NCBI GenBank assembly: GCA_022711595.1
Contig: JAKLET010000003.1
Coordinates: 124,001-188,000, forward strand
Reading direction: 5' to 3'
DNA: 64,000 bases
Origin: Deltaproteobacteria bacterium
GTDB taxonomy: Bacteria; Desulfobacterota; Syntrophorhabdia; Syntrophorhabdales; Syntrophorhabdaceae
Shown: one piece after another, positions 3,808-63,559 of the stretch
How the letters are laid out: each line of letters begins with the position of its first letter
Numbering within the stretch: the stretch's first letter is position 1
Translations under genes and position numbers: made by a program
The notes under the pieces: model-generated
The model's input: only the letters and a program-made list of their open reading frames with translations
Database searches by the model: none
What the model was told of the DNA's origin: nothing

Positions 3808-3822
3808 AAGGAGGGCGGTTAT

Positions 3823-4551
3823 ATGAAGGGAATTATACTGGCGGGCGGACTAGGCAGCAGGCTTGCCCCGCTGACGCGCATTACCAACAAACACTTGCTC
3901 CCCGTCTATGACAAGCCCATGATCTATTACCCGATCCAGACGCTCATCAACGCGGGTATTACCGATATCATGATCGTGACGGGCGGCAACCACGCGGGTG
4001 ATTTTTTAAGGCTCATGGGCAATGGGAAAGACTTCGGCCTCAAGCACCTCAATTATACCTATCAGGAAGGTGAAGGCGGCATAGCCGCCGCCCTTTCCCT
4101 TGCGGAGTATTTTGCCGACGGAGAGTCGATCTGTGTTGTCCTTGGCGATAATATCATAGAGAAAAACATCATCAGGGCAGTTGAAGATTTCAAAAAACAG
4201 GGGAAAGGCGCAAAGATAATGCTCAAGGAGGTACCCGATCCGGAGAGGTTCGGCGTGGCCGAGATAAATGACGGAAGGCTCGTCAGCATAGTCGAAAAGC
4301 CGAAACACCCCAGGAGCAATCTTGCCGTCATAGGTATTTACCTTTATGACGCTGAGGTGTTCAATATCGTTAAGACATTAAAGCCCTCGGACAGGGGAGA
4401 ACTTGAGATCACCGACGTGAACAACGCATATGTCAGGGAAGGCACAATGACCTGGGAGATGCTCGACGGATGGTGGACGGACGCAGGTACCTTCGAATCG
4501 CTCCTTCGCGCGAGCGTTCTCGTTGCCCAGTCCGGTGCAAACAACAAGTGA
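3823..4551 (+). CDS. rmlA: Glucose-1-phosphate thymidylyltransferase, short form
   Basis: 242 residues. The nucleotidyltransferase signature LAGGLGSRLAPLT is at the N-terminus, followed by NKHLLPVYDKPMIYYPI (sugar-phosphate site) and VVLGDNII (metal site). It makes dTDP-glucose from glucose-1-phosphate and dTTP, the first step to dTDP-L-rhamnose. It is ~50 residues shorter than the classical ~290-residue RmlA and lacks the C-terminal helical allosteric/dimer segment, a form known in several bacteria and archaea. A strong ribosome site (AAGGAGGG) lies just before the ATG. The next genes complete the rhamnose pathway, which supports this assignment over a generic nucleotidyltransferase. Confidence 0.85.
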   Translation: MKGIILAGGLGSRLAPLTRITNKHLLPVYDKPMIYYPIQTLINAGITDIMIVTGGNHAGDFLRLMGNGKDFGLKHLNYTYQEGEGGIAAALSLAEYFADGESICVVLGDNIIEKNIIRAVEDFKKQGKGAKIMLKEVPDPERFGVAEINDGRLVSIVEKPKHPRSNLAVIGIYLYDAEVFNIVKTLKPSDRGELEITDVNNAYVREGTMTWEMLDGWWTDAGTFESLLRASVLVAQSGANNK

Positions 4552-4566
4552 CCAGGGGGAATGTAT

Positions 4567-5022
4567 ATGATCAACGGCGTTGCAGTAAAAATATTGAAAT
4601 TCATACCCGATGAACGGGGAAGGCTCATGGAGATCCTTCGCAGCGACGATGAGATGTTCACGCGCTTCGGCCAGGTCTATATGACAACGACATATCCCCA
4701 TGTGGTCAAGGCCTGGCATTTCCACAGGAAGCAGGATGACCTCATCACCTGCGTCCGGGGGATGATAAAGCTCGTTCTTTATGATGACCGAAAAGGGTCG
4801 CCGACGAAGGGCGAGGTTAACGAGTTCTACATGGGCGACCACCAGCCCATGCTCATCATGGTGCCGAAAATGGTCTATCACGGCTGGAAATGTGTGAGCC
4901 AGGAGGAAGCGATCATAATCAATACCGTCACGGTACCCTATAACCACAAAAAACCGGACGAGTTCAGGATCGACCCCCATGTCAACGACATACCGTACAA
5001 GTGGGAGAGGAAAGATGGCTGA
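4567..5022 (+). CDS. rmlC: dTDP-4-dehydrorhamnose 3,5-epimerase family cupin
   Basis: 151 residues from the ATG at 4567. That start is 7 bp from the AGGGGGA ribosome site, whereas the ATG at 4561 touches it. This is a single cupin domain: WHFH supplies the probable catalytic/base histidine, YHGWKCVSQEEAII is the core strand pair, and the tail PYNHKKPDEFRIDPHVNDIPYKW matches the RmlC C-terminus. It is ~30 residues shorter than classical RmlC, so an epimerase giving another dTDP-6-deoxyhexose is possible. Its position between rmlA and rmlB makes rhamnose the best guess. The stop overlaps the rmlB start by 8 bp. Confidence 0.78.
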   Translation: MINGVAVKILKFIPDERGRLMEILRSDDEMFTRFGQVYMTTTYPHVVKAWHFHRKQDDLITCVRGMIKLVLYDDRKGSPTKGEVNEFYMGDHQPMLIMVPKMVYHGWKCVSQEEAIIINTVTVPYNHKKPDEFRIDPHVNDIPYKWERKDG

Positions 5023-6025
5023 AACTATTCTCGTCACCGGCGGATGTGGTTTTATCGGGACCAATTTCGTCCGCCACATGCTTGGCAAATATGATTACCA
5101 TATCATCAACCTCGACAAATTGACCTACGCGGGCAATCTCGAGAACCTTCAAGACATTACCGGAGATGACCGGTACACCTTCGTGAAGGGTGACATAGCC
5201 GATACGGCCGATCTTGAGCGGGTCTTTGAAAGAACCATCGATGTGATCGTCAATTTTGCCGCCGAATCCCACGTGGACAGAAGCATCATAGACCCTGATG
5301 CCTTCATAAAGACCAACATAAACGGCACCTTCAACCTTCTTGAAATGGCGAGAAAGAAGAAGGTGAGGCGATTTGTACAGATCTCCACGGACGAGGTCTA
5401 CGGTTCCCTTGGTGCAACGGGGGCCTTTCGCGAGGACACCCCGCTGGCGCCGAACAGCCCTTATTCGGCCTCAAAGACGTCTGCCGATATCCTTGCCATC
5501 GCATATTTCAAGACATACGGCATGCCTGTCCTCGTTACCCGCTGTTCCAATAATTATGGACCCTACCAGTTTCCCGAGAAGCTCATTCCCCTCATGATCA
5601 CAAATGCCCTTGCCGGCATGGAATTGCCTGTTTACGGGGACGGTCTCAACGTCCGCGACTGGATCCACGTGATAGACCACTGCGCGGCCATCGATCTTGT
5701 GCTTCACCGGGGAGAGGACGGCAACGTCTACAATATCGGCGCGGGAAAAGAAAAGACCAATATTGATATCGTCAGGCTTGTCCTTGAGATACTGGGGAGG
5801 CCCGAGTCCCTCATAAGGTATGTGAAGGACAGGCCGGGCCACGACAGGCGCTACGCTATAGATTCAGGGAAGATCACCAAAAACCTGGGTTTCAGGCCGT
5901 CCGTTGATTTTGCCGAAGGAATGCGCCAGACAGTGCAATGGTATGTTGAAAACAAAGGCTGGTGGGAGCGGATAAAGACGGGGGCGTATCTCGATTATTA
6001 CGAAAAGATGTACGGGAACCGATGA
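5015..6025 (+). CDS. rmlB: dTDP-glucose 4,6-dehydratase
   Basis: 336 residues from the ATG at 5015, preceded by GGGAGAGGAAAG. It is an extended SDR enzyme with the NAD site TGGCGFIGTNFVR, the catalytic STDEVYGS segment and YSASK (Tyr-xxx-Lys), then GPYQFPEKLIPL, typical of RmlB. It converts dTDP-glucose to dTDP-4-keto-6-deoxyglucose. It overlaps rmlC by 8 bp and rmlD by 4 bp (ATGA), so the four genes form one tight operon. Confidence 0.94.
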   Translation: MAETILVTGGCGFIGTNFVRHMLGKYDYHIINLDKLTYAGNLENLQDITGDDRYTFVKGDIADTADLERVFERTIDVIVNFAAESHVDRSIIDPDAFIKTNINGTFNLLEMARKKKVRRFVQISTDEVYGSLGATGAFREDTPLAPNSPYSASKTSADILAIAYFKTYGMPVLVTRCSNNYGPYQFPEKLIPLMITNALAGMELPVYGDGLNVRDWIHVIDHCAAIDLVLHRGEDGNVYNIGAGKEKTNIDIVRLVLEILGRPESLIRYVKDRPGHDRRYAIDSGKITKNLGFRPSVDFAEGMRQTVQWYVENKGWWERIKTGAYLDYYEKMYGNR

Positions 6026-6852
6026 AGATACTTATTGCCGGCGCGAATGGATTGCTCGGTGCCAGTATTGTTCCCCTCCTTGCCGAGCGTTTCGATCTTT
6101 GGGTTCACGATGTAGATTCATGGGACATCACCTGCGGCCCGGCCGGGGAGGAACTGGTCTGCCGCTATCGGCCTGACGTGGTTCTGAACCTTGCGGCCAT
6201 GACCGATGTCGACGGTTGTGAAGGGGCATCGGAGCTTGCGGAAAAGGTCAACGCACAAGGGGCGGCGATCGTGGCTGACCTTTGCGGAAAAGCGGGGACG
6301 AAGCTCATACATGTCAGTACGGATTATGTTTTTGACGGCAAGAAAGGCCTGCCTTATTGTGAGGACGATGAACCAAACCCGGCTTCAGTGTACGGAAGGA
6401 CCAAACTCGAGGGTGAAAGGATGGTCTTTGAGAAGCTTCCTTCGGCTGTTGTTATCAGGACGCAGTGGCTCTATGGAAAGACGGGGGCCAGCTTTGTCGA
6501 AAAGATCATAAGGGCTGCCGGAGAGCAGGGGAGCGTGCGCGTTGTCAACGATCAGACGGGTTCTCCGACGTATGCGAAGGACCTTGCCGTGCCCATTATG
6601 GCCGTCATAGAGAAAGGGCTGACGGGAATCGTCCATGTGTCGAACAGCGGTTCCTGTACCTGGTATGAGTTCGCAAGGGCGATCTTTTCCTTAAAGGGCA
6701 TGGATGTGGAGGTAAGTCCTATCACCACGCGGGAACTGGGACGTGCGGCGCCGCGTCCCCCATACTCTGTTTTCGATCTGTCAAGGCTGGAGCGTGACAC
6801 AGGGGTCAGGATGCGTCATTGGATGGAAGCGCTGAAAGAATATCTGGCCTGA
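6022..6852 (+). CDS. rmlD: dTDP-4-dehydrorhamnose reductase
   Basis: 276 residues from the ATG at 6022, which overlaps the rmlB TGA. The SDR signature GANGLLGAS lies at the N-terminus. VSTDYVFDGKKGLPYCEDD and YGRTKLEGE carry the catalytic Tyr/Lys pair typical of RmlD. QTGSPTYAKDLA is the substrate-binding region. It reduces dTDP-4-keto-L-rhamnose to dTDP-L-rhamnose for O-antigen or other surface glycans. Last gene of the rml set. Confidence 0.93.
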   Translation: MKILIAGANGLLGASIVPLLAERFDLWVHDVDSWDITCGPAGEELVCRYRPDVVLNLAAMTDVDGCEGASELAEKVNAQGAAIVADLCGKAGTKLIHVSTDYVFDGKKGLPYCEDDEPNPASVYGRTKLEGERMVFEKLPSAVVIRTQWLYGKTGASFVEKIIRAAGEQGSVRVVNDQTGSPTYAKDLAVPIMAVIEKGLTGIVHVSNSGSCTWYEFARAIFSLKGMDVEVSPITTRELGRAAPRPPYSVFDLSRLERDTGVRMRHWMEALKEYLA

Positions 6853-6888
6853 CACAAACCGCCCGCTGTCTTGCTTGGGCAGCCGGCA

Positions 6889-7632
6889 ATGGAGAGATCC
6901 CCCCTGAAGATCATTTTTTTCTCTGATACCCATATCAGCCGCAGGAGCGATGACAGGATAGTCCTTTTCCTGCGTTTTATCGCCGACCATTGCGCCGACG
7001 CCGATATGATCTTTATACTGGGAGACCTCTTCGAGTTCTACCATGGTTATGACGACTATATATACCCCTGGTTCAACCCTGTAGCCGGTGCCCTGAAAGA
7101 CCTGGCGGCACGGGGCAAGATCATCTATTTCCTGGAAGGCAACCATGAGTTCTCCATGGGAAAATACTTCGGAGATCATACAGGTGTCAAATGCGCGAGA
7201 GAACTGACCATTGAGATCGACGGAAAGAAGGTCTATGCCGCCCACGGCGACGGGCTTTCCCGTTTTTCCCTGGCCCGGTTCCTGAAGCGTCCTCTTTTTT
7301 ACGGGCTTATGGACCGTCTCGGGCCTGCGGCTACGTGGAACATCGCCATGCTCATGCACCCCCTGCTTTCGCGGCGCAGGAAAGGGCACAGCGAGGCCGT
7401 CAGGGGCGCTTTCAGGGCATTCGCGCAAACAAAGTTCTCCGAAGGGTATGATGTGGTCTTGCTCGCCCATTCTCATATACCCGATGTTTTCGAGACCAAT
7501 GACGGCGCGGCTGAAAAAATATACCTCAATACAGGCGATCTCATCACGAGTGAGAGTTTTGTTTTTTATGAAACCTCTTCCGGTTTTTCTCTCAGGACAT
7601 TTTCTCGGGCAGACAAACAGACCAATCTGTAA
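6889..7632 (+). CDS. Metallophosphoesterase, LpxH-like UDP-2,3-diacylglucosamine pyrophosphatase
   Basis: 247 residues from the ATG at 6889 (a TTG at 6871 is the only longer start). The calcineurin-like two-metal motifs are complete and in order: SDTHIS, GDLFEF, GNHE, AHGD and AHSH. GDLFEF with a 240-250-residue size fits the LpxH/LpxG group, which releases lipid X in lipid A synthesis. Classical LpxH has GNRD where this protein has GNHE, so the substrate assignment is inferred, helped by lptD and the rml genes just upstream. No transmembrane segment is obvious. Confidence 0.72.
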   Translation: MERSPLKIIFFSDTHISRRSDDRIVLFLRFIADHCADADMIFILGDLFEFYHGYDDYIYPWFNPVAGALKDLAARGKIIYFLEGNHEFSMGKYFGDHTGVKCARELTIEIDGKKVYAAHGDGLSRFSLARFLKRPLFYGLMDRLGPAATWNIAMLMHPLLSRRRKGHSEAVRGAFRAFAQTKFSEGYDVVLLAHSHIPDVFETNDGAAEKIYLNTGDLITSESFVFYETSSGFSLRTFSRADKQTNL

Positions 7633-7639
7633 AAAGTGA

Positions 7640-7668
7640 TTGCCAATTCACTGTATCATCACTATATA
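7640..7668 (+). promoter_or_regulatory. Promoter of the CNB-GGDEF gene
   Basis: TTGCCA at 7640-7645 and TATATA at 7663-7668 are 17 bp apart; an alternative TATAAT starts at 7667. The segment is AT-rich, lies between two genes and is followed by GGGGAGG ahead of the ATG at 7702. Confidence 0.5.
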
Positions 7669-7701
7669 TAATAGTATCCTTTTGGTTAATGGGGAGGCGC
7701 A

Positions 7702-8664
7702 ATGGCGGATAGTGAAAAAACCGGGTTCGACGAAAGGGATTTGGAAGGCATACAGCTCTTCAAGAATGTGCATCTAGCGTCCATAAAGGGCCTCATAGAT
7801 GTGTGCAGGACTCAGGTCCTTGAACCGGGCGCAGTGCTGATATCGCCGGGACGACTTAACAAAAAGATATACTTCGTAATGGAGGGCAGCCTGAGGGTCC
7901 ACCTCGAATCTCCTGAAAGTGAACCGATTGCGACATTGGGCCCCGGTGAGAGCGTGGGAGAGATATCGGTCATCGATAATCAGGCCGCGAGCGCCTATGT
8001 GGTGGCAGATGAGCGCTGCCGGCTTCTCGTGATGGAGGAAGATGTCCTATGGTCACTCATCCAGGCGTCCCACGCGGCGGCCTGCAACCTTCTTTTCGTT
8101 CTTGCGAAGCGTCTTCGCCAGACAGACTGCATTATTGTCGAAGGGGCGCAGCTTGAACAGGATTTTCAGCATTACGGGAGCGTAGATGCCCTGACGGGAC
8201 TTCACAACCGTTATTGGTTCGATACCGTGTACAAAAGGCAATTTGCGCGCTCGATAGCCTCGGGCAGGCCTTTTTCTCTTATTATGGCCGACATTGACCA
8301 CTTCAAGGAGGTAAACGATACATACGGCCATCTCGTCGGCGACAGGGTGCTCTATAGTATTGCGCGGATCATTACCAACTACATTCGCGCCACCGAGGTG
8401 GTCGCCCGCTATGGCGGGGACGAGTTCGTGATCATTCTTGCAGACCAGGGCCTTGACACGGCCAGGACCGTTGCCGAACGGCTCCTGCTTGCCGCCAGGG
8501 ATGCCCTTCCTATACGGATAGGGGACAAGACCATCACCCACCCCACCCTGTCGGTCGGCATTGCTGAAATAAATGTGGGTGAGAGTCCTGATGAACTTAT
8601 CCGCAGGGCCGATGAAGCGCTCTATAGGAGCAAGATCGGCGGCAGAGACTGCGTTGCCGATTAG
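7702..8664 (+). CDS. Cyclic-nucleotide-binding domain / GGDEF diguanylate cyclase
   Basis: 320 residues. Residues ~18-140 form a CRP-type beta-roll (LEPGAVLISPG, YFVMEGSLRVHL, LGPGESVGEISVIDNQAASAYVVA). Residues ~165-320 are a GGDEF domain with the intact active-site string RYGGDEFVI and DIDHFKEVNDTYGH. It probably makes cyclic di-GMP under control of a small ligand bound to the N-terminal domain. It has no membrane segment or DNA-binding domain, so it is a cytoplasmic signalling enzyme. No RxxD inhibitory site was noticed before GGDEF. Rubrerythrin follows 27 bp downstream and may be co-transcribed. Confidence 0.88.
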   Translation: MADSEKTGFDERDLEGIQLFKNVHLASIKGLIDVCRTQVLEPGAVLISPGRLNKKIYFVMEGSLRVHLESPESEPIATLGPGESVGEISVIDNQAASAYVVADERCRLLVMEEDVLWSLIQASHAAACNLLFVLAKRLRQTDCIIVEGAQLEQDFQHYGSVDALTGLHNRYWFDTVYKRQFARSIASGRPFSLIMADIDHFKEVNDTYGHLVGDRVLYSIARIITNYIRATEVVARYGGDEFVIILADQGLDTARTVAERLLLAARDALPIRIGDKTITHPTLSVGIAEINVGESPDELIRRADEALYRSKIGGRDCVAD

Positions 8665-8691
8665 AAAACTATAACAGGAAAGGAGAATATC

Positions 8692-9174
8692 ATGCAGATC
8701 TTCAACCCCGGCGATGTCCTGCAATTTGCCATCCGCATCGAGGAAGATGGAGAGATCTTCTATCACAAGGCAGCCCTCAATGCCGAAGACAAAGAAGTGA
8801 GGGACCTCTTCAACAATCTTGCCGACGAAGAGATAAGACACAAAAGGGTCTTTCAGGAAATGCTCTCCCGCATTGAGGTGAACCCGCAGGCGGAAAGCTA
8901 TCGCGGAGAGTATGGCGCCTATCTGCGCGATTACATCGACGGAAAGGTTGTATTCACCAGGAAGACCGGCGCCGAGGCCGCAGGCGATACCAAAGACGCG
9001 CTGTCGGCGATAGTTTTTGCCATGAATCGCGAGGCCGACTCCATACTGTACTACCATGAGGTGAAACAATTCGTGGACGAAAAAAATTACAGAGAGATCG
9101 ATAAGGTCATTGAGGAGGAGCGCAAGCATTTCCTGAAACTCTCCGCGGCGGCGAAGAAGTATAGAGACGGGTAA
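8692..9174 (+). CDS. Rubrerythrin-like ferritin-family protein
   Basis: 160 residues in a four-helix-bundle pattern with diiron ligand motifs: EEDGEIFY near the start, ADEEIRHKRVF in helix 2, NREADSILYYHE and EEERKHF near the end. It lacks the C-terminal rubredoxin domain of classical rubrerythrin. Such proteins typically act in peroxide defence of anaerobes, but the electron donor is not evident here. A strong GGAAAGGAG precedes the ATG. The stop TAA lies in the first bases of an intergenic repeat. Confidence 0.82.
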   Translation: MQIFNPGDVLQFAIRIEEDGEIFYHKAALNAEDKEVRDLFNNLADEEIRHKRVFQEMLSRIEVNPQAESYRGEYGAYLRDYIDGKVVFTRKTGAEAAGDTKDALSAIVFAMNREADSILYYHEVKQFVDEKNYREIDKVIEEERKHFLKLSAAAKKYRDG

Positions 9175-9318
9175 TGGGTGATAGGTAATAGGTGATGGGG
9201 CGTAGGTGAAAAAGCAAAAGCTGCTTGAACTGCTTGAGCCGCTTAAACCGCTTGAACGTTAAGTTTAAAAGAAAGGTGGTTTTCCCTATGACCTATAACC
9301 CATTACCCATGACCTATC
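9171..9318. repeat. Intergenic palindromic repeat, families A and B
   Basis: Left arm 9171-9208 is built of short units such as GGGTGATAGG and TAATAGGTGATGGG (family A). Its reverse complement is at 9284-9317 (CCTATGACCTATAACCCATT). Between them, 9219-9259 holds family B units (GCTTGAACTGCTTGAGCCGC). The element sits between two convergent genes and reaches into both stop codons: the rubrerythrin TAA and the permease TAG. It could fold into a long imperfect hairpin in either transcript. Confidence 0.8.
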
Positions 9319-10078
9319 TTTTAAAGAAAAGGTCGTAACCTAATTTTATGATGAGGCAGGAGACGACGATGAGGAAAAAAACCCTCACGAAGCGGCTTCC
9401 TTTCAGTATGGCGAGCCTGGTTCCTGCCACGGCGCCGAGGATATTGCACAGGGCCATGAATATTGCAGTTTTGTAGAGAATATTATCCGTGGCGGCAAAG
9501 TACAGGACGGCTGAGAGGTTTGTAGCGAAATTGATCACCTTCGATGATGCGGAAGCGGCGAGGAAACTGAAACCGAACATGCCGATGAACACAAAGATGA
9601 GAAAACTCCCCGTACCCGGACCGAAAAATCCGTCGTAAAAACCAAGCACCGCGCCTGTGGCGACACTGACGAAGGACCGTTTGACGCCATCGAGTTTCGG
9701 TGCATGGAGAGAACCGAAGTCTTTCTTGATGAAGGTGTAGATAGCGATTGCGATGAGCATGAAGAGGACGAGGGGCCTCATGACGGCGGGGTTCATGAGA
9801 GTAACGGTCCTGGCACCCAGAAACGAGAAAAGGAGCGCCGCCATCGTGGCTGGCATGGTCGACCTCCAGTCTATGCGGATGTGTCTGGCATACTGGAGCG
9901 TCGCGATCGATGTTCCTGCGATGGAGGCAAGTTTGTTCGTGCCGAAGAGTGCTGCCACCGGAAGGCCGGGAAGTACGATAAAGAGCGCCGGCAATTGAAT
10001 GAGGCCACCCCCTCCCGCAACGGAATCGATGAGGCCCGCGAGAAAGGCAAAAAAGCAAAGAATGGCTGTTTCTATCAA
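9314..10078 (-). CDS. TSUP-family (TauE/SafE) membrane permease
   Basis: 254 residues, about eight hydrophobic segments. The family signature GLIDSVAGGGGLIQLPAL is at residues ~15-32, and its pseudo-repeat GFYDGFFGPGTGSFLIF is at ~145-161. TSUP proteins move sulfite, sulfoacetate or related anions across the inner membrane; the substrate cannot be told from the sequence. The start is TTG at 10078 with GAGAGG just upstream. The final Arg codon and TAG stop come from the adjacent A repeat. Confidence 0.85.
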   Translation of the reverse strand: MIETAILCFFAFLAGLIDSVAGGGGLIQLPALFIVLPGLPVAALFGTNKLASIAGTSIATLQYARHIRIDWRSTMPATMAALLFSFLGARTVTLMNPAVMRPLVLFMLIAIAIYTFIKKDFGSLHAPKLDGVKRSFVSVATGAVLGFYDGFFGPGTGSFLIFVFIGMFGFSFLAASASSKVINFATNLSAVLYFAATDNILYKTAIFMALCNILGAVAGTRLAILKGSRFVRVFFLIVVSCLIIKLGYDLFFKR

Positions 10079-12582: not shown

Positions 12583-13500
12583 TCAAGGCCGTGTTCCCAA
12601 TCCGGCCTTGCTGACGATCTCCGGGACCGCCTGTTCCCATTCGATGGCCATGATGTGAATTCCTGCAACACCCTTGATGGCACGCAGCCGTTCGATGGTT
12701 TCAACGCAGATCGAGATGCCTTCCTCCCGGTACTTTTCTTTCGACACGGCGCTCATGCGTTCGATAAGATCGTCGGGAACGTCCATGCCCGGAACGGAGC
12801 CTTTCATGTATCGCGCCATGGCCGGCGACTTCATAGGCGTGACACCTGCAAGTATGAAGGCCTTTTCGTGAAGACCGAGATCGCGGACCATCTCCATCCA
12901 CTGCACAAACTTTTCTACATTGAAGACACACTGCGTCTGAACGAACTGTGCGCCCGCCTTCACCTTTTTCGCGAGGCGCAGCGCCCTTATATCGAAAGGG
13001 TCGGCAAAGGGGTTCTCGACGCAGCCGATAAAAAGGTCCGGTCTGCCCTTGATCTCTTCGCCGCTCAGAAACTTTCCCTCGTCACGCATACCCCTCACCG
13101 TGTCAATGAGCTGAATGGAGTCGATGTCGTAAACATTTTTTGCACCCCTGTGGTCGCCGAAGGACTGGTGGTCCCCGGAGAGGCACAGCACGTTTTTGAT
13201 CCCCAGCGCAGAAGCGCCAAGGATATCGCTCTGGAGCGCTATGCGGTTCCTGTCCCGGACGGTCATCTGGAGGACCGTATCGAATCCCATCTCTTTGAGG
13301 ACCACACAGGCGGCGAGGCTTGACATCCTGACAACGGCGGTCTGGTTGTCGGTGACATTTACGGCATCGACAACGTCTTTCAGGCAGTTGCCTTTTTTCC
13401 TGACGGATTCGGGATCAGCGCCGCGGGGCGGCCCGCACTCGGCCGTCACGGCAAAATGCCCGCCCCTGAGGACCCTCTCCAGGTTACCTGTCGCGGTCAT
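12583..13500 (-). CDS. metF: Methylene-tetrahydrofolate reductase, MetF-type catalytic subunit
   Basis: 305 residues, TIM-barrel MTHFR family: TAECGPPRGADPE near the N-terminus, NVTDNQTAVVRMSS, LSGDHQSFGDH (FAD-binding region), and QTQCVFNVEKF with PMKSPAMARYM in the second half. It lacks the C-terminal regulatory extension of eukaryotic enzymes. The start ATG overlaps the metV stop (ATGA). In acetogens such as Moorella, MetF works in complex with MetV, HdrABC and MvhD. The same set precedes it here, so NADH or ferredoxin-coupled reduction (or oxidation) of methylene/methyl-THF in a Wood-Ljungdahl branch is likely. Confidence 0.9.
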   Translation of the reverse strand: MTATGNLERVLRGGHFAVTAECGPPRGADPESVRKKGNCLKDVVDAVNVTDNQTAVVRMSSLAACVVLKEMGFDTVLQMTVRDRNRIALQSDILGASALGIKNVLCLSGDHQSFGDHRGAKNVYDIDSIQLIDTVRGMRDEGKFLSGEEIKGRPDLFIGCVENPFADPFDIRALRLAKKVKAGAQFVQTQCVFNVEKFVQWMEMVRDLGLHEKAFILAGVTPMKSPAMARYMKGSVPGMDVPDDLIERMSAVSKEKYREEGISICVETIERLRAIKGVAGIHIMAIEWEQAVPEIVSKAGLGTRP

Positions 13501-14165
13501 ATTTTAATATCCTCTCTTACCCTTTTGCGGGGACCTGCGTCGCGCGATGCGGACCAGTCCTTCGGTTTTTCTATATCGAGATATCTGTCGAGTTCTCCGC
13601 GCGCCTTAAGCCGTTCGATAATAAGGTGCCAGGCGCAGGGGGTTTCATTTTTCAATTCGCACAGTCCGCCGTGTGAACCGCCGCAGGGACCGTTCATGAT
13701 GCTCTTGGCGCATCGTGCGACGGGGCAGATCCCGCATGTCCTGTCGAGGACGCAGTCCCCGCAGCCCTGGCAGCGTTCGGACCACACGCCGTGCTGCTCG
13801 GTTACCCCCATGAAGCGGGTGTTCACGCCAGGCAAGACCGTTTTCTCAGGATAGGTCTCCGCGATGAACTGGACACCGCAGCCGCAGGCGATGGAAAGTA
13901 CGGCATCATAGTCTGCGATAACCGGGGCGAGCGCCTGTGCATATTCGGGATCGCACTGGCGCTCCAATGTCTTTTCGTCGACCTCGACAGGCACGCCGTC
14001 GCCCTGTCTTTTCAAACGGATCTGCGAGGCGAGGAGTGCAACCTCTTTTGTTCCTCCGACGGCACAAACGGTGACGCATTCGTTGCACCCGATGAGGAGT
14101 ATCCTCCCGTAGGGGGCGATCATGTTAATGATCTCATTGAATGGTTTCCTGTCGGCAACGATCAT
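13497..14165 (-). CDS. metV: MetV, iron-sulfur/zinc partner of methylene-THF reductase
   Basis: 222 residues. The N-terminal half has CNECVTVC and CGCGVQF. The C-terminal half carries CQGCGDC, CGICPVARC and the MTHFR_C signature NGPCGGSHGG-LCE with CAWHLIIERL. This is the MetV type that accompanies MetF in acetogens, where it is thought to pass electrons from the Hdr/Mvh part to the MetF flavin. AAAGGAG sits six bases before the ATG. metF overlaps its stop by 4 bp, while a 146-bp repeat-containing gap separates it from mvhD upstream. Confidence 0.88.
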   Translation of the reverse strand: MIVADRKPFNEIINMIAPYGRILLIGCNECVTVCAVGGTKEVALLASQIRLKRQGDGVPVEVDEKTLERQCDPEYAQALAPVIADYDAVLSIACGCGVQFIAETYPEKTVLPGVNTRFMGVTEQHGVWSERCQGCGDCVLDRTCGICPVARCAKSIMNGPCGGSHGGLCELKNETPCAWHLIIERLKARGELDRYLDIEKPKDWSASRDAGPRKRVREDIKI

Positions 14166-14204: not shown

Positions 14205-14330
14205 ATCCCTTTGGTTTCTCTTGTTTCTTTGGTTTGTTCAGTTTCTTTGGTTAATAAAACCAGACAAACCAGACAAACTGAAGAAACAATGTTTTTTCCA
14301 TAACCCATGACCTATAACCTATCACCCGTT
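14205..14330. repeat. Intergenic palindromic repeat, families C and A
   Basis: A C-type left arm at 14210-14250 (TTTGGTTTCTCTTGTTTC) faces a right arm at 14255-14287 (ACCAGACAAACCAGAC). A family A block follows at 14298-14330 (CCATAACCCATGACC). On the minus strand the A block encodes the last residues and the TAG stop of mvhD. Unusually, this copy lies inside an apparent operon (mvhD to metV). Confidence 0.8.
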
Positions 14331-14746
14331 TTCTTAACTGTTTTTATCGGATTTGGCCCCAGCTTCCGGACTCTTTCTGTGATCTCCCGGGTCACCTGCG
14401 CGAACCTTCTGCCGTCCGCGGAGGACAGGTTATACATCTCGAGGCGTTCTCCCCCGATGCCCGCTTCATCAAGGAGCACCCGTGTGTATTCGACACGCTT
14501 GCGCGCCCTTATGTTGCCCGTCATGAAATGGCAATCCCCTTCAAGGCACCCCACGAGGCAGACGCCGTCCGCTCCTCCTTCGAAGGCCTGCAGGATATGG
14601 ATGGCATCGACCCTGCCCGTACAGGGGACCTTGACGATCTTTACCGATGCCGGGTAGGAAAGCCTCATCGAACCTGCCAGGTCCGCCGCGGTATAACCTC
14701 AGTATTCACAGCAAAAAGCGATGATCTGCGGATTAAAATACTGCAT
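14312..14746 (-). CDS. mvhD: MvhD/FlpD-type [2Fe-2S] subunit, selenoprotein (in-frame TGA)
   Basis: 144 residues when the TGA at 14699-14701 is read as selenocysteine (Sec, residue 16). The start is the ATG at 14744-14746 with AGAGGAAAG before it. The N-terminus reads QIIAFCCEY-Sec-GYTAADLAGSMR. Ordinary MvhD proteins have Cys at that place, one of the cluster ligands, and the downstream sequence continues the family (IVKVPCTGRVD, GADGVCLVGCLEGDCHF, RVEYTRVLLDEAGI). A start after the TGA would remove the conserved N-terminal cysteines. A short stem-loop of bacterial SECIS type follows the TGA. MvhD relays electrons to HdrA. It lies between hdrA and metV as in the Moorella MTHFR cluster. Sec in MvhD/VhuD-like proteins is known from methanogens. 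Confidence 0.88.
14670..14684 (-). promoter_or_regulatory. Putative bacterial SECIS element of mvhD
   Basis: Starting 14 bases after the TGA, GGACCT and AGGTTC can pair (one G-U) around the loop GGC. The loop lies ~20 bases after the TGA and begins with G, as in SelB-binding bacterial SECIS hairpins. Confidence 0.55.
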
Positions 14747-14763
14747 TCTTTCCTCTTCTCGTA

Positions 14764-14894: not shown

Positions 14895-17800
14895 TTAACG
14901 CTTCACGGTTCTTACCGCTGCCCTCGTTTTTGCGATGATCTGCCTGTCCCGGTAGTGCATGATGTCTATGGCCTTTGCGGGACATTCGGCGGCGCAGCTG
15001 CCGCAGCCCTTGCATTTGCTCGTGTCGATGACGGCCTTCCCTTCGTCGCTTATCACGGGTACGCCGAAGGGGCAGATGCGCACGCATGTCAGGCAGGCGG
15101 CGCATTTTTCCGCGTCGACGGCCGCCACGATACCGCCGACCATAATGGAATCCTTCGCGAGGATCGTTAAGGCCCGCGCCGCCGCTCCCTCGGCCTGGAC
15201 AATGCTCTCGCGTATATTCCTGGGGGAGTGGCAGGCTCCCGCCAGATAGAGACCGTCGGTTGCGAAATCGATGGGTTTCAGTTTCATGTGTGCCTCGAGG
15301 AAGAACCCTTCACGGGTCCTGGGGACCTTGAAGATGCCTGCCAGGACCCCCGTGTCGTTCGGGACCGTGGCGCTTGCCAGTATGACCATGCCGGCCTTGT
15401 ATTCGATGGTTTCGCCGAGAGTGCGGTCTTCACAGCGCACCAGGAGTCCGTCAGCCGACCTTTCGATAACGGGAGGGTTTTCGGGTTTGAAGCGGATGAA
15501 TCGTATCCCCATTGTTCTGGCCAGGGTGTAGTATTTTTCATAGAAGCCGTACGTCATCATATCGCGGAATATAACGGTGATCTCCGTGCGGGGCCAAAGC
15601 TTTTTTAAGGAGATGGCGTTCTTCAGAGCTGTTATGCAGCAGGTCCTGCTGCAGTATTGTCTTTCTTCAACGCGGGAGCCGACACACTGGATCATGGTGC
15701 ATTGATCGACGGGCGGGAGCGTTTTATCGTGAAGTGCCTTCTCGAGCTCCAGCTGTGTCATGACACGTTTATCTTCTCCGTAAAGGTAATGGCCGACGGG
15801 TTTGTATTCGGAGGCGCCCGTGGCCAGGATCGTAATGGCATGCTTGATCTCCATCGGTTCCGTGCGGCCGGCGGCCATGATCTCCGTTATGAAGTTTCCC
15901 TTGAAGCCTTCCGACCCGATGATCTCTGTGTCCGTGTGGACGTGGATGCGGCGGTGACGTCTGACCTTTTCGATCGTGTCAGAGAGGAAACCCTGGATGT
16001 CAATTCCCTCGATAGTATGAAAAATGTTGACGAGGTTCCCCCCGAGCCGCGGCTCTTTTTCGACGAGATACACTATGAAGCCCTGGTCGGCAAGACGAAG
16101 CGCCGAAGTCATGCCGGCAATCCCTCCGCCTGCGACAAGGGCGCTTTTTTCCACGGGCAACATGGACTCCGTGAGCGGTTCGATGTGATGGGCGTTGGCA
16201 ACGGCCATTTTGACAAGGTCCTTGGCTTTTTCCGTCGCGTCGGATCTTTCGTGCATGTGGACCCACGAACACTGGTCCCTGATGTTGGCCATTTCAAAGA
16301 GATATTTGTTCAACCCCGCGTCGCGGATAAGGCTGCGGAAGATAGGTTCATGGGTCCTCGTGGAACAGGAGGCGACGATAACACGGTTGAGCCCTTTCTC
16401 ATAGATGATCTTTTTGATCTTTTCCTGGGTGTCCTGGGAACAGGTGAAGAGATATTCGTCGGCGAAGACGACATTCGGGAGGCCCTGGGCGTAGTTTTTT
16501 ACCTCGGGGACGTTGACGATTCCCCCTATGTTGACGCCGCAGTTGCATATGAATACGCCGATCCTCGGTGCCTGCCCGGCGACGTTTAACTCGTCGGGCA
16601 GGGTGTGTATTTTTATATCGTGCCAGCGCTTATCGGTGAGCTCCAGGGTTGCCTCACAAGCAGCGGCGGAGCCGTCAACGACTGTTTCCGATATGTCCTT
16701 GGGTGATTCTGAACCGCCGCAGACGTATATGCCCTCCCGCGAGGTCACAAGCGGTGAAAGGGGTCCCGTGTCGATGAAACCGTGATCGTTGAGCTTGACG
16801 CCGATGATCCCGGCGAGCCCGCCGAGTTGTTTCGATGGTCTCAGACCGACGGCGAGGACGACGAGATCGAAGGTCTCCGTCGTGACGGTGCCTTCATCGT
16901 CAGTGTAGGTAAGGTCCAGGTCTTTCGTTTGGGGGTGCTCGTAGATCTTGGAGATCGATGACCTTATGTAGCGTATCCCGTATTCCTTCTTCGCGTGCTC
17001 GTAGTGTTCGTCATAGCCCTTACCGAAAGTTCTCGTGTCCATGTAGAAGACCGTGGACTCGATATCGCGGTGGTGCTCCCTTGAGATGATCGCCTCTTCC
17101 ATGGCGAACATGCAGCAGATCGATGAACAATAGGGGTTTTTCGTATTCCTGCTTCCGACACACTGGATGAAGGCGATCTTCTTCGGTATCTTCCCGTCCG
17201 ATGGGCGCATGACAACGGCGCCTGTCGGCCCCGTGGCTGAAAGGACCCTCTCGTAGTCAACGCTGGTGAGCACGTTGGCACAGGAATGGTATCCCAGCTC
17301 TTTCATGTTCGCGGCGTCGAATTCATCAAAACCGCTGGCTATTATGATGCTCCCAACCTCGAGGACTTGTTCCGCGGGGCCCTGGGTGTATTCAACAGCC
17401 TCCGGTTTGCATGATTCCCCGCAGATACCGCAGCCGAGACAGCGCCTGCAGCTCAGGCACCGCCTGGCCTCGGTCACGGCGCTTTTTTCGTCAAGGGTCC
17501 TCACTGTTTCCACGAAGCCGGTGCGTTCCCCGGCGGGCACCCTGGGGATGTTGACACGCGTTCTTTGAGGGACGGGGAAGGGGACCTCGTCGAGTATCTT
17601 GTCGTCCTCCGCGAGGCGCCCCTCAAGGAGATCATACCCTTCGAGGTAACGGATGATGGAGTCTGCGGCCCTTTTCCCCTGGGCTATGGCATCAATGGCG
17701 CTGCGGGGGCCGGTCACCGCGTTTCCCCCGGCGAAGACACCTCTCTGCGTTGTTTCGAGGGAAACCGGGTCTACCTTTATCCTGCCGTCATCATGGCGCT

Positions 17801-19340
17801 CGATCGTCTCCGATGCCGCGATATATGCCGTGTCAATGGTTTCGTAGATCACGAGAATGAGGGTGTCCATTTCGAATGTGACCGTTACCGATGGGTCATA
17901 TGCGGGATCGAAGGATCCTTTTTCATCATAGACCCTGACGCATCGGGCAAGCTCCATACCAACTAGTGTATCGCCGTTGGCCAGGATCCGCCTTGGGCCC
18001 CAGGCGTTGTGAAAGGTGATGCCTTCCTCTATGGCCTGGTCGATCTCCCAGCGGTGTGCGGGCATGGCATCCCATGTTTCCAGGGCAACGATGTGGACGT
18101 CCGCAACACCGAGACGTCTTGCCGTTATTGCGGTGTCCATAGCGACATTGCCGCCGCCGACCACGAATACCCTTTTTCCCAGGGTGACCGGTTTTCCCGT
18201 GTTGACCGCCTTCAGAAAATCAAGGGCCGTGAGCACGCCCCGGGCCTCCTCGTTTTCAAGGCCAAGCTTCCTTCTCCCGTGGGCTCCCGAGGCGATGAAC
18301 GTGGAGTCATAAGAGCCCAGGACGCTTTCGAGGGAAACGTCTTTGCCTATCCGCGTGCTGCATCGCATCTCCACTCCCATCCGTTCCGCGATGGAGAATT
18401 CCCGTTTCAGGACATCTCTGGGAAGCCTGTAGGCGGGTACTCCCGCAAAGAGCATGCCGCCCGGTTTTTCATTGGCATCAAAGACCGTTACGGAGTAACC
18501 TGCCTTGCGAAGTTCGATGGCGCAGGTTACTCCTGCAGGGCCCGCGCCGATGACGGCGACCTTTTTGTCCTTCATACTCCCCGTTACGGGCAGGGGGGGC
18601 TCACGAACTCCGGTCTCGTGATCGGCGACGAAACGTTTCAGCGCGCATATGGCAATGGGCTGATCGACCTGCCTGCCCCGCAGGCATGCGTTTTCGCACG
18701 GGTGGGCGCAGATCCTCCCGATGATACCGGGGAAGGGAAGCTTTTCCCGTATAAGGTCAAGCGCTTTAAGGAACTCTCCCTCGGCGATGAGGCCGATGTA
18801 ATCACGGGCATTGAGGTTGATGGGGCAGGTATAGATACAGGGAGACAACTGCCGGTCGATCATGTAGGTCGAAGGTATGGCCTGGGGAAAGTTTATGAAA
18901 GCGGCGCTGCGGAGCGACATCTCTTCGTTGTATACGTTGCCGACCTCCAGCGGGCAGGCCTCGCCGCACGCGCCGCAGGAGGTGCATTTTTCCGGCAGCA
19001 CCCGTCTCGGTCTTGTCCGGAGGGTTACCCTGAAACGGCCCGCCTCTCCCTCGAGGCGTACGATTTCGGAATTCATAAGGAGTTCAATGTTGGGGTTTTT
19101 GCCCACCTCGACGAGTTTGGGGGCCATGACGCACATGGAGCAATCGTTGGTGGGGAATATCTTGTCAAGCTGGGCCATGTTCCCGCCGATGTTCGGTTTG
19201 CGGTCGGCGAGATAGACCTTGAAACCCGCCTCGACGAGGTTAAGGGATGCCTCCATCCCTGCGATGCCGCCTCCGACGACGAGGACCTTTCCTGTTTTGC
19301 CAGTTCCGTTGTTCTCTGCGGATGCGCGGCCCGGTTTCAA
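14895..19340 (-). CDS. hdrA: HdrA-NfnB/GltD-HdrA fusion flavoprotein (heterodisulfide reductase A type)
   Basis: 1481 residues; ordinary HdrA is ~650. Residues ~15-165: HdrA FAD core start (VVGGGIAGMEAS, IFPTNDCSMCVMAPKL) and a ferredoxin motif CTSCGACGEACP. Residues ~165-570: an inserted GltD/NfnB-like unit with TCPINLNARDYIG, AHPCENACLRGRQVDQP, GAGPAGVTCAIEL and GGGNVAMDTA (NAD(P)H and FAD sites). Residues ~628-915: more Fe-S (CLSCRRCLGCGICGESC) and the HdrA remainder. Residues ~926-1481: a second, complete HdrA (IGVFICNCGVNIGG, VASCSTRTHEP, GGGIAGMTSA) ending in two 4Fe-4S motifs. The inferred role is flavin-based electron bifurcation with NAD(P)H. The start is TTG at 19340, six bases after the preceding stop, with a weak ribosome site. 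Confidence 0.9.
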   Translation of the reverse strand: MKPGRASAENNGTGKTGKVLVVGGGIAGMEASLNLVEAGFKVYLADRKPNIGGNMAQLDKIFPTNDCSMCVMAPKLVEVGKNPNIELLMNSEIVRLEGEAGRFRVTLRTRPRRVLPEKCTSCGACGEACPLEVGNVYNEEMSLRSAAFINFPQAIPSTYMIDRQLSPCIYTCPINLNARDYIGLIAEGEFLKALDLIREKLPFPGIIGRICAHPCENACLRGRQVDQPIAICALKRFVADHETGVREPPLPVTGSMKDKKVAVIGAGPAGVTCAIELRKAGYSVTVFDANEKPGGMLFAGVPAYRLPRDVLKREFSIAERMGVEMRCSTRIGKDVSLESVLGSYDSTFIASGAHGRRKLGLENEEARGVLTALDFLKAVNTGKPVTLGKRVFVVGGGNVAMDTAITARRLGVADVHIVALETWDAMPAHRWEIDQAIEEGITFHNAWGPRRILANGDTLVGMELARCVRVYDEKGSFDPAYDPSVTVTFEMDTLILVIYETIDTAYIAASETIERHDDGRIKVDPVSLETTQRGVFAGGNAVTGPRSAIDAIAQGKRAADSIIRYLEGYDLLEGRLAEDDKILDEVPFPVPQRTRVNIPRVPAGERTGFVETVRTLDEKSAVTEARRCLSCRRCLGCGICGESCKPEAVEYTQGPAEQVLEVGSIIIASGFDEFDAANMKELGYHSCANVLTSVDYERVLSATGPTGAVVMRPSDGKIPKKIAFIQCVGSRNTKNPYCSSICCMFAMEEAIISREHHRDIESTVFYMDTRTFGKGYDEHYEHAKKEYGIRYIRSSISKIYEHPQTKDLDLTYTDDEGTVTTETFDLVVLAVGLRPSKQLGGLAGIIGVKLNDHGFIDTGPLSPLVTSREGIYVCGGSESPKDISETVVDGSAAACEATLELTDKRWHDIKIHTLPDELNVAGQAPRIGVFICNCGVNIGGIVNVPEVKNYAQGLPNVVFADEYLFTCSQDTQEKIKKIIYEKGLNRVIVASCSTRTHEPIFRSLIRDAGLNKYLFEMANIRDQCSWVHMHERSDATEKAKDLVKMAVANAHHIEPLTESMLPVEKSALVAGGGIAGMTSALRLADQGFIVYLVEKEPRLGGNLVNIFHTIEGIDIQGFLSDTIEKVRRHRRIHVHTDTEIIGSEGFKGNFITEIMAAGRTEPMEIKHAITILATGASEYKPVGHYLYGEDKRVMTQLELEKALHDKTLPPVDQCTMIQCVGSRVEERQYCSRTCCITALKNAISLKKLWPRTEITVIFRDMMTYGFYEKYYTLARTMGIRFIRFKPENPPVIERSADGLLVRCEDRTLGETIEYKAGMVILASATVPNDTGVLAGIFKVPRTREGFFLEAHMKLKPIDFATDGLYLAGACHSPRNIRESIVQAEGAAARALTILAKDSIMVGGIVAAVDAEKCAACLTCVRICPFGVPVISDEGKAVIDTSKCKGCGSCAAECPAKAIDIMHYRDRQIIAKTRAAVRTVKR

Positions 19341-19346
19341 GGTGTC

Positions 19347-19730
19347 TTATTTTCTCCTGTAAAGCGCGTTGCGCTCTTCGTATTCCGCGATCTCCACAAG
19401 GTCCCGGCGCAGGAGTTCTTTCATGTGATCGAAGACGATGTCCGCCGGCAGCCCCAATTCCCGGGCAAGCACCGGAACGGACATCGCGCGGCGCCCGATA
19501 CTTTCGAGTATCCTGGCCCGCTCTACGGCCCTTTTTAGCAGCGGATCGAAAACAAGGGAGAACTGCCTTTGGGTGAAGCGTTCATGGTACACATTTTCTT
19601 TCATAAGGGACCCTTTCTTTTCCAGGAGCTTTTCGAGCTTCTGTGCGCCCTCAGGGTCCAGGGACCTCACATATGCGAGCATCTCATCGGGACTGTCCCC
19701 TGTTGTTTTGTCCTTTACCCGGGCGCTCAT
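19347..19730 (-). CDS. Small winged-helix-like protein inside the hdr cluster
   Basis: 127 residues, overlapping hdrB by 4 bp (ATGA) and ending 6 bp before hdrA, so clearly co-translated with them. Residues ~60-125 look like a winged helix (AVERARILESIGRRAMSVPVLARELGLPADIVFDHMKELLRRDLVEI). The N-terminus is charged and helical. There are no cysteines, so it is not an electron carrier. It may be a regulator or an assembly/structural subunit of the Hdr complex. I do not recognise a named family. Confidence 0.75.
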   Translation of the reverse strand: MSARVKDKTTGDSPDEMLAYVRSLDPEGAQKLEKLLEKKGSLMKENVYHERFTQRQFSLVFDPLLKRAVERARILESIGRRAMSVPVLARELGLPADIVFDHMKELLRRDLVEIAEYEERNALYRRK

Positions 19731-20599
19731 GCTACATCATCCCCCGGTGTTCCGATGGACTTGAGAATGTCGTCGACGGGTATGAGGTGTCTTTTGCCCC
19801 ACTCGATGGCGCCAAAAAGGGCAAGCTCGAAGATCTCCGTCAGGAAAAAGACCGGGAGCTTTGCGGAATCCTTTTTGAGGTGGGGCGTAAGGTCAAGATT
19901 GAGCTGGCACAGCGGGCAGGTGGTGACGACCGCATTGGCGCCGGCCGCGGCCGCCATGTCCATGATGTGCCCGGAGAGGGAGGCGGTCATTTTTTTGTTT
20001 GTAATGGTTGCTCCCGCGCCGCAGCACTCTGTTTTATGCTGCCAGGCAACGGGGTCTGCGCCGAGACATCGCAGGATAATGTCCATGCCGACGGGATCTT
20101 CAATGTCATCGGAAGGAGGAGCGCCCGTGGTGCGGGTCAGGACGCACCCGTAATACGCTGCGGCCCTGACCGTCCCGAGGTCGTACACGGCGGAATCAGA
20201 AATACGCTCGGTTCCGATATATTCCAGGAAGACCTCGATAACGTTCCTTACTTCCAAGGAACCGGTGCATACAAGGGGCGAGATGGCCCTGTTGACCATT
20301 TCCCTCGTTTCCCTGTCCTGCTGTATCCTTGATGCGGCCACCTTTGTCCGCGCATAACACGCGGAACAGGGAGCCACAAGATGGAGGCCTTCACGCTCCG
20401 CGATGGCGATATTTCTTGCTCCCAGGACATCAGTTATCTTATCGTTTATCGTGGGGGCGGCCGATGCCCCGCAGCACGACCAGTCATCGAGCTCTTTCAG
20501 TTCGATGCCGTAAAAGGACAGTATCTTTCTGAGTGAATGTTCATAGAAACTGCTCGATGTCTTCAGGGAACATCCGGGATAATATGAGAGCGTGGTCAT
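19727..20599 (-). CDS. hdrB: Heterodisulfide reductase subunit B-type protein
   Basis: 290 residues with two CCG domains: YPGCSLKTSS with WSCCGASAA, then YYGCVLTRTTGAP with TECCGAGATI and TCPLCQLNLD. In methanogenic HdrB these ligate two non-cubane [4Fe-4S] clusters that reduce a disulfide. In MetFV-linked complexes the natural HdrB partner is unclear. It overlaps hdrC upstream and the small winged-helix gene downstream by 4 bp each. Confidence 0.93.
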   Translation of the reverse strand: MTTLSYYPGCSLKTSSSFYEHSLRKILSFYGIELKELDDWSCCGASAAPTINDKITDVLGARNIAIAEREGLHLVAPCSACYARTKVAASRIQQDRETREMVNRAISPLVCTGSLEVRNVIEVFLEYIGTERISDSAVYDLGTVRAAAYYGCVLTRTTGAPPSDDIEDPVGMDIILRCLGADPVAWQHKTECCGAGATITNKKMTASLSGHIMDMAAAAGANAVVTTCPLCQLNLDLTPHLKKDSAKLPVFFLTEIFELALFGAIEWGKRHLIPVDDILKSIGTPGDDVA

Positions 20600-21132
20600 A
20601 TTTTTACCTTTCCAGCCATTTCTCTCATCACCTTTCCCAGTTTTTTCCTGTCCCTGATGTTGTGGGGGGTAAGGCCAATCCTCCCTTTTCTCATCATGGC
20701 AAGGCCCATGTCGGCGTCCCCGAAGAACTCCTTTTTGTGAAGCCGGTAGCGCATCACCGCCTCCATTTCATAAAGACGGCCATGCTTGGAAATGTTTTCG
20801 ATGAAGATCTCGTCGAAGAGCCGTGTGTCCATTGCAGTGGCCAGATGTGCTTCAACAGAGAGGACCCGCAGCGTTTCAAAGACGCGGGCGACATCGATGC
20901 CGTTGGGACAGCGGACGCTGCAGGTTGCGCAATTAAGGCATGTCCAGATCGTTCCCGACGACAGGGCCTTTTCCCGCTCACCGTCGATGATGTAACGGAT
21001 GAGCCTGTGGGGGACAATATCCATGTCCTGCGCGACGGGGCACCCGTTGGTGCACCGGCAGCACTGGTAACAGGAGGATATCCCTGCTTTCGATACCGTC
21101 TCTATCTCGTTGAGGAAGGAAAATTGAGGCAT
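20596..21132 (-). CDS. hdrC: Heterodisulfide reductase subunit C-type ferredoxin protein
   Basis: 178 residues. Two [4Fe-4S] motifs, CYQCCRCTNGCP and CLNCATCSVRCP, sit in a helical HdrC scaffold (PHRLIRYIIDGE, GIDVARVFETLR). It passes electrons between HdrA and HdrB. First gene of the seven-gene minus-strand cluster. The ribosome site is weak. TTGACA at 21168-21173 on the minus strand is the best -35 candidate in the 95-bp divergent gap. Confidence 0.93.
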   Translation of the reverse strand: MPQFSFLNEIETVSKAGISSCYQCCRCTNGCPVAQDMDIVPHRLIRYIIDGEREKALSSGTIWTCLNCATCSVRCPNGIDVARVFETLRVLSVEAHLATAMDTRLFDEIFIENISKHGRLYEMEAVMRYRLHKKEFFGDADMGLAMMRKGRIGLTPHNIRDRKKLGKVMREMAGKVKI

Positions 21133-21144
21133 CTTTCAACTTTA

Positions 21145-21173
21145 ATTTTTAAATTTTATTCTTCTTATGTCAA
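21145..21173 (-). promoter_or_regulatory. Candidate promoter of the hdr-mvhD-met cluster
   Basis: On the minus strand, TTGACA (21173-21168) is followed 16-17 bp later by an A/T-only -10 region (TAAAAA or AAAAAT). The -35 is perfect, the -10 poor. It would also overlap regulation of the divergent AmmB gene. Confidence 0.35.
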
Positions 21174-62533: not shown

Positions 62534-63559
62534 ATGGACGAGGGATTGACAAAATTTGTCCGCGGCGGAGGGTGAGCGTCGAAGATAGGTCCGGGTGACC
62601 TGGCGAACATTCTCTGCGGGATCGAGATCCCGGCGGATGAAAATGTGATGGTTGGTATCGAAGGCTTTGAGGACGCAGGTGTCTACAAAGTAACGGACGA
62701 TATCGCCCTTGTTCAGACCGTGGACTTTTTCACCCCCGTTGTGGATGACCCTTACTGGTTCGGCCAGATAGCCGCCGCCAACGCGCTGAGCGACATCTAT
62801 GCCATGGGGGCCGTGCCGAAGACAGCCCTGAACCTCGTCTGCTTTTCACCGAAAAAATTTGATATATCCATCCTGAAGGAGATCATACGGGGCGGAGCAG
62901 ACAAGATCCGCGAGGCGGGTGTGAGCCTCCTTGGCGGCCACAGCGTGGAGGATGAAGAGATCAAGTACGGTCTGTCCATCACGGGGGTTGTCCACCCAGA
63001 CAGGGTGCTGCTCAATGAAGGGGCAAGGCCGGGCGACCTTCTTGTTCTTACGAAACCCCTCGGAACGGGTATTATGAACACCGCCATCAAGGGGAACCTG
63101 CTCGATGCTGATGCCGTGACAGATCTTATCAGGGTCATGGCCATGCTCAACAGGAACGCGGCAGAGGCGATGCTCACCGTGGGGCCCCACGCATGCACCG
63201 ACGTGACCGGTTTCGGCCTCGCGGGTCATCTGAAGGAGATGATAAAAGAGTCACTGGGTGTGGAAATAATCGCGGAGCGGCTTCCATATTTCCGGGAAGC
63301 GGTGGAATTTACCTCGTCGGGGTTTGTCCCCGGCGGTCTTTACCGCAACAGGGATTTTTACGGAGAGCACGTGGCGGCCTCGCGGTCGGATTTCTTTTTC
63401 GATATCATATTCGACCCTCAGACGTCCGGAGGGCTCCTTATCGCCATCGATCCCGCGGACAGGGCAAAGTTCGAAAGCGAGGCAATGCGCCTCGGCGTGG
63501 ACCATCATGTGATTGGGACGTTCCTGGCGGAACCAAAAGGGAAGATCCTTCTCAAGTAA
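62534..63559 (+). CDS. selD: Selenide, water dikinase (selenophosphate synthetase), Sec-containing
   Basis: 341 residues when the TGA at 62573-62575 is read as selenocysteine (residue 14: RGGG-Sec-ASKIGPGDL). Family members have Cys or Sec at this catalytic place, followed by a conserved Lys. The start ATG at 62534 has AAGGGG close upstream; starts after the TGA would remove the active site. Later motifs: DFFTPVVDDPYWFGQIAAANALSDIYAMGA (ATP/Mg site), LGGHSVEDEEIKYGLSITG, TDVTGFGLAGHLKEM and DPQTSGGLLIA. It makes selenophosphate from selenide and ATP for Sec-tRNA. selA, selB and selC are not in the window. Confidence 0.95.
62587..62601 (+). promoter_or_regulatory. Putative bacterial SECIS element of selD
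   Basis: AGGTC and GACCT pair around CGGGT, beginning 11 bases after the TGA. Spacing and a G/U-containing loop match the bacterial SelB-binding hairpin of the E. coli fdhF type. Confidence 0.65.

Follow-up and report, generated by a model that had tools for sequence, protein, structure and literature searches.

Does the short reading frame between hdrA and metV in this Syntrophorhabdaceae genome encode a complete MvhD subunit, or is it the truncated part of a selenoprotein gene? In the window, the whole stretch of 64,000 nucleotides analyzed here, the ordinary mvhD ORF spans positions 14312–14668 and starts at Met27 of a longer frame, giving 118 amino acids. On the minus strand this frame extends from an ATG at 14746 to a stop ending at 14312 and, with an in-frame TGA read as selenocysteine (Sec), specifies 144 residues, MQYFNPQIIAFCCEY-U-GYTAADLAGSMRLSYP....

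An MvhD gene truncated by the standard ORF call

An earlier note, made from the letters of this DNA, had proposed a hidden Sec-containing MvhD in an Hdr operon linked to methylenetetrahydrofolate reductase (MTHFR), with a ribosome site before the upstream ATG and N-terminal Cys/Sec residues that the ordinary ORF loses. Our analysis bears this out. The read-through product belongs to Pfam FlpD (PF02662), matching the profile over its full length (1–123 of 123; E 1.6e-48; 164.2 bits against a gathering cut-off of 22.3); AGAGGA lies 4 nt ahead of the ATG; and the 118-aa ORF lacks positions 13 and 16, two of the five invariant Cys/Sec positions of the family. Together with the Cys/Sec-only homologues and the sel genes described below, this makes it almost certain that 14312–14746 encodes a selenoprotein, the MvhD subunit of an MTHFR-Hdr complex of the Moorella type (Table 1). 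Besides correcting a gene that the standard ORF call truncates, the full-length frame yields a product that scores 178.4 bits with the NCBIfam VhuD model NF045873, below its curated cut-off of 215; by profile score it is related to VhuD, but is not a VhuD as NCBI defines it.

The genes run on the minus strand from 21132 to 12583 in the order hdrC, hdrB, a 127-aa helix-turn-helix (HTH)-like ORF, hdrA, mvhD, metV and metF, so that all six genes of the Met complex are adjacent. In the second flavin module of HdrA, sequence reading and alignment to 5odc_A show that the Glu/Lys pair of the bifurcation signature is kept (E1200/K1240), and the first module keeps E697 and has E748 where Lys is expected. 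The HTH-like ORF, a possible operon regulator, lies between hdrB and hdrA, overlaps hdrB by 4 nt and has homologues in 28 loci, almost all of the same family and in the same order. The promoter candidate directly upstream of hdrC is weak, since shuffled sequences contain promoter-like sites at least as often as this region does.

Table 1. Features of the mvhD locus and of selD, numbered within the window.
Feature	Position	Strand	Basis
metF, methylenetetrahydrofolate reductase	12583..13500	-	PF02219, E 1.1e-40
metV, iron-sulfur partner of MetF	13497..14165	-	PF12225 (MTHFR C-terminal), E 1.4e-34
mvhD, probable selenoprotein gene (FlpD/FrhD/VhuD family), 144 codons, in-frame TGA	14312..14746	-	Pfam FlpD, AlphaFold model
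SECIS hairpin GGACCU-GGC-AGGUUC; six pairs, extended here by an outer C-G	14670..14684	-	synonymous-site conservation
TGA codon 16 as selenocysteine, context CCEY-U-GYTAADLAG	14699..14701	-	84 TGA and 26 Cys, no other, in clade
AGAGGA, ribosome-binding-like, ending 4 nt 5' of the mvhD ATG	14751..14756	-	sequence reading
hdrA, 1481 aa, two HdrA-type flavin modules and a GltD-like NAD(P)H domain	14895..19340	-	Pfam/NCBIfam
127-aa helix-turn-helix-like ORF	19347..19730	-	weak HTH_20, E 2e-5
hdrB-like	19727..20599	-	PF02754 CCG, E 1.8e-24; best NCBIfam TIGR03288
hdrC-like	20596..21132	-	Fer4 domains; best NCBIfam HdrC
Candidate operon promoter TTGACA-17-AAAAAT, directly 5' of hdrC	21145..21173	-	10/12 consensus match, weak
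selD, selenophosphate synthetase, own in-frame TGA (GGGUASK)	62534..63559	+	TIGR00476 and translation

Selenocysteine and cysteine alternate at residue 16

FlpD genes with one TGA are numerous among 60 related genomes. In an alignment of 157 homologues from the related and from named genomes, positions 13, 16, 42, 67 and 72 are Cys in every sequence (157/157), or Sec at 16 or 67 only; with Sec counted as Cys, the product thus has the conserved Cys residues of the FlpD/MvhD/FrhD delta subunit. The family has two alternative places for Sec, residue 16, used in 86 genes, and residue 67, used in 11, and none of the 157 sequences carries Sec at positions 13, 42 or 72.

Within the clade of the present gene, which was delimited by motif and has a support of 100/99 on the tree, 84 distinct genes have a TGA at residue 16 and the other 26 have Cys, with no third state; the tree places one of the TGA genes, L067, outside the clade, and the numbers hardly change without it. 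The in-frame UGA is therefore aligned with Cys in homologues, as expected for a bacterial selenoprotein and as the earlier note had held for MvhD proteins. A TGA shared at this codon by 84 distinct homologous genes excludes chance. Independent assemblies spanning many genera and several phyla share the TGA, and the Sec form is also found in an isolate, Desulfotruncus arcticus DSM 17038 (L167, a RefSeq genome). Named hosts of the clade are mostly Desulfobacterota MAGs, the closest being labelled Syntrophorhabdus sp. and Syntrophobacterales, and in most members metV lies directly downstream of mvhD. On the clade tree, Sec and Cys were exchanged at least seven times, with four of these changes forced by strongly supported branches. 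In the Sec genes, P6, I8, A10, C12 and C13 are kept as protein while their codons vary (residues 6–13), indicating that translation runs through the TGA.

Other MvhD subfamilies carry Sec at 67 (GGUHxGDC) together with Cys at 16 (L040, L082, L083, L086, L089, L090, L105, L131, L133, L136 and L155). Each Sec-encoding gene among the bacterial MvhD genes compared has Sec at 16 or at 67, and none has both.

A hairpin frozen at synonymous sites

The earlier note had also pointed to a SECIS-like hairpin after the TGA. This hairpin begins 14 nt after the TGA, with its apical loop 20 nt after it. In 33 Sec genes, codons 21–25 invariably read GCG GAC CTG GCA GGT as long as the residue itself is conserved (zero synonymous entropy), and mean relative synonymous entropy is 0.15 over codons 19–26 versus 0.83 in the rest of the gene (Mann-Whitney p 0.0002, a guide only, as the sequences are related). 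The pattern persists across the 84 Sec genes, where codons 21–25 have zero or near-zero synonymous entropy, in contrast to high entropy in the 26 Cys genes; all six hairpin pairs are present in 80 of 84 Sec genes versus 2 of 26 Cys genes. The sequence downstream of the UGA is thus under constraint at the RNA level, as in bacterial selenoprotein genes, and the synonymous freezing together with the hairpin provides strong comparative evidence for a working SECIS element.

The folding energy of the hairpin did not differ significantly from that of shuffled sequences (z -0.4 to +0.7) and was dropped as SECIS evidence in favor of synonymous-site conservation; accordingly, a hairpin scan of a single sequence would not have settled the question. 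RNAalifold detected no covariation in the hairpin, because its pairs hardly vary. Three Cys genes of the clade (L113, L114 and L156) retain five or six of the six pairs. L113 and L114 are close to the Sec gene L172 on the tree and perhaps represent recent Sec-to-Cys changes.

The genome encodes the selenocysteine machinery

The assembly searched for sel genes comprises 3.5 Mb and is estimated to be 100% complete. It contains selA (573.2 bits), selB (380.6 bits, above the cut-off of the profile search), tRNA-Sec (selC; 73.7 bits, gathering score 47) and selD (TIGR00476, 373.7 bits, with one TGA), and so has the complete gene set expected of a bacterial selenoprotein producer. Thus selA, selB and selC, for which the earlier note had suggested a search, are all present, and selD lies in the window as it had stated. 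The TGA of selD in GGGUASK is consistent with the UxxK motif listed for Sec-containing SelD (PMC13188914). The ordinary selD ORF starts at a GTG at 62645 and hence loses the TGA near the start of the gene (FVRGGGUASKIG).

Selenocysteine at the probable [2Fe-2S] cluster site

An AlphaFold model of the 144-residue protein (mean pLDDT 91.9) superimposes on the MvhD of Methanothermococcus thermolithotrophicus, 5odc_D, with a Z of 23.7 and an rmsd of 1.3 over 138 aligned residues at 40% identity. The two share the same fold, and 5odc_D contains a [2Fe-2S] cluster (PMC6019823) and has a hydrogenase and a methanogen Hdr as operon partners, in contrast to the operon described here. A [2Fe-2S] cluster is known in MvhD-family homologues (PMC6019823, PMC12350162). 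The best PDB sequence match, 9sfi_K, has a non-standard X at positions 16 and 67; both are taken to be Sec, in agreement with the two Sec residues listed for archaeal VhuD (PMC13188914).

Part of the earlier proposal was that Sec may be a ligand of the cluster. This is a plausible and likely assignment, but the family offers five invariant Cys positions where there are places for four ligands, and Sec occurs at just two of them, 16 and 67, so that sequence does not decide whether Sec16 binds the cluster. The literature searched did not give the ligand identity of residue 16. Alternatively, Cys13, 42, 67 and 72 could hold the cluster, leaving Sec16 as a free selenol beside it with a redox or protective role. 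This reading, which we consider rather unlikely, would fit the surplus Cys position and the restriction of Sec to 16 and 67, never 13, 42 or 72. However, a strand ending in CxxC or CxxU typically supplies a ligand pair, and residue 67 tolerates Sec as well, so that at least one of 16 and 67 has to be a ligand if four are needed.

Two further readings dispense with Sec altogether. According to the first, translation genuinely ends at the TGA and the working protein is the 118-residue product, which is exactly the ORF of a standard caller and starts at an in-frame ATG directly after the hairpin. We regard this as very improbable: the codons ahead of the TGA are under selection at the protein level, all 84 genes have retained the TGA, translation continues through the site in the Cys homologues, and the short form would lack two positions that are invariant in all 157 sequences. 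The second, that TGC/TGT was misread or misassembled as TGA or that the gene is a decaying pseudogene, could explain one genome by a single-base change, but its probability is negligible, as the recurrence of the TGA in independent assemblies across genera and phyla, including the D. arcticus isolate, already refutes it, and the hairpin is conserved beside the recurring TGA.

We return to a Sec-containing subunit. On comparative-genomic evidence, SelB with Sec-tRNA reads UGA codon 16 owing to the SECIS hairpin. By homology with solved complexes, the 144-residue product would fold like the methanogen MvhD and carry a [2Fe-2S] cluster, which would relay electrons between HdrA and its partner. 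At the cluster site, Sec16 would take the place of one of the five invariant Cys, probably ligating the cluster, and may speed up electron transfer, make it more reversible or shift the potential. The complex would probably link the methylene-THF/methyl-THF pair with NAD(H) and a second carrier. With a chance that we put slightly below even, the MetVF-linked MvhD proteins may form a large bacterial clade with several Sec/Cys switches at one cluster position, the Sec selenolate coordinating the [2Fe-2S] cluster directly where electrons enter a bifurcating methylene-THF reductase.

Relation to known MvhD proteins and Met complexes

The earlier note regarded Sec as a possible cluster ligand in this subunit as unusual redox tuning, but Sec in MvhD is not unusual. 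Table 1 of PMC13188914 counts FrhD/MvhD/VhuD proteins with Sec in CxxU among the experimentally verified selenoprotein families; such proteins are already known from Methanococcus and Asgard archaea, and the part of the 2009 report on Desulfobacterium autotrophicum HRM2 that concerns these genes describes four mvhD selenoproteins in this sulfate reducer (mvhD1, 2, 3 and 5; PMC2702500). Sec-MvhD as such is hence already known, and the MetVF-linked form is a further member of a known family. It shares the family and the Sec position in CxxU with archaeal VhuD (Methanococcales, Asgard archaea), but archaeal VhuD has two Sec residues, a SECIS element in the 3'-UTR and a hydrogenase as partner, whereas the protein described here has one Sec (67 being Cys), an in-gene bacterial SECIS and MetVF as partner. 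Like the HRM2 genes, as these are described in that part of the report, it is a bacterial Sec-MvhD adjoining hdrA/hdrL genes; in contrast, the same part of the report describes no metVF link (PMC2702500).

In Moorella thermoacetica and Sporomusa ovata, the Hdr-type methylene-THF reductase HdrABC-MvhD-MetVF is known as the Met complex, and pull-down experiments in S. ovata indicate that MetVF, HdrAB and MvhD are in contact; its second electron carrier is still unknown, and bifurcation by this bacterial complex is not established (PMC9430772). The operon described here has the same gene set and order, with an HdrA of nearly the same length (1481 aa versus 1487 aa in M. thermoacetica). In contrast, the MvhD of Moorella mulderi (L154) has Cys at position 16, and selenium goes unmentioned in PMC9430772. 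In the literature searched, which was incomplete, we found no explicit description of a metV-linked Sec-MvhD, and one may exist elsewhere.

The Sec form of the MetVF-linked MvhD is widespread and conserved, and probably truncated in annotation. These findings indicate that, in many sulfate reducers and syntrophs, the methylene-THF reductase linked to Hdr depends on selenium at its electron-transfer subunit.

Sec and Cys versions in the same genome

The genome harbors seven FlpD genes, two of them with an in-frame TGA. An additional operon at positions 2948–10044 of locus L176 (G000:C57:44000-58000) has the order hdrC-hdrB-hdrA-mvhD(Cys)-metV but no metF, and both the Sec and the Cys operon occur in four or five genomes of the genus. 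Speculatively, the Cys operon may stand in under selenium shortage, by analogy to Vhc for Vhu in methanogens. Thanks to the repeated Sec/Cys switches and to genomes that have both versions, the role of Sec near a [2Fe-2S] cluster can be put to the test; if Sec is a selenolate ligand, genomes with both operons would offer a natural test of the effect of selenium.

The other FlpD gene with a TGA (L177, G000:C15:62000-72287, positions 9250–9636, minus strand; CNWUAYGAADLAG) lies beside an HdrA-like domain and belongs to a type with an open frame of ~290 aa that is common to many relatives.
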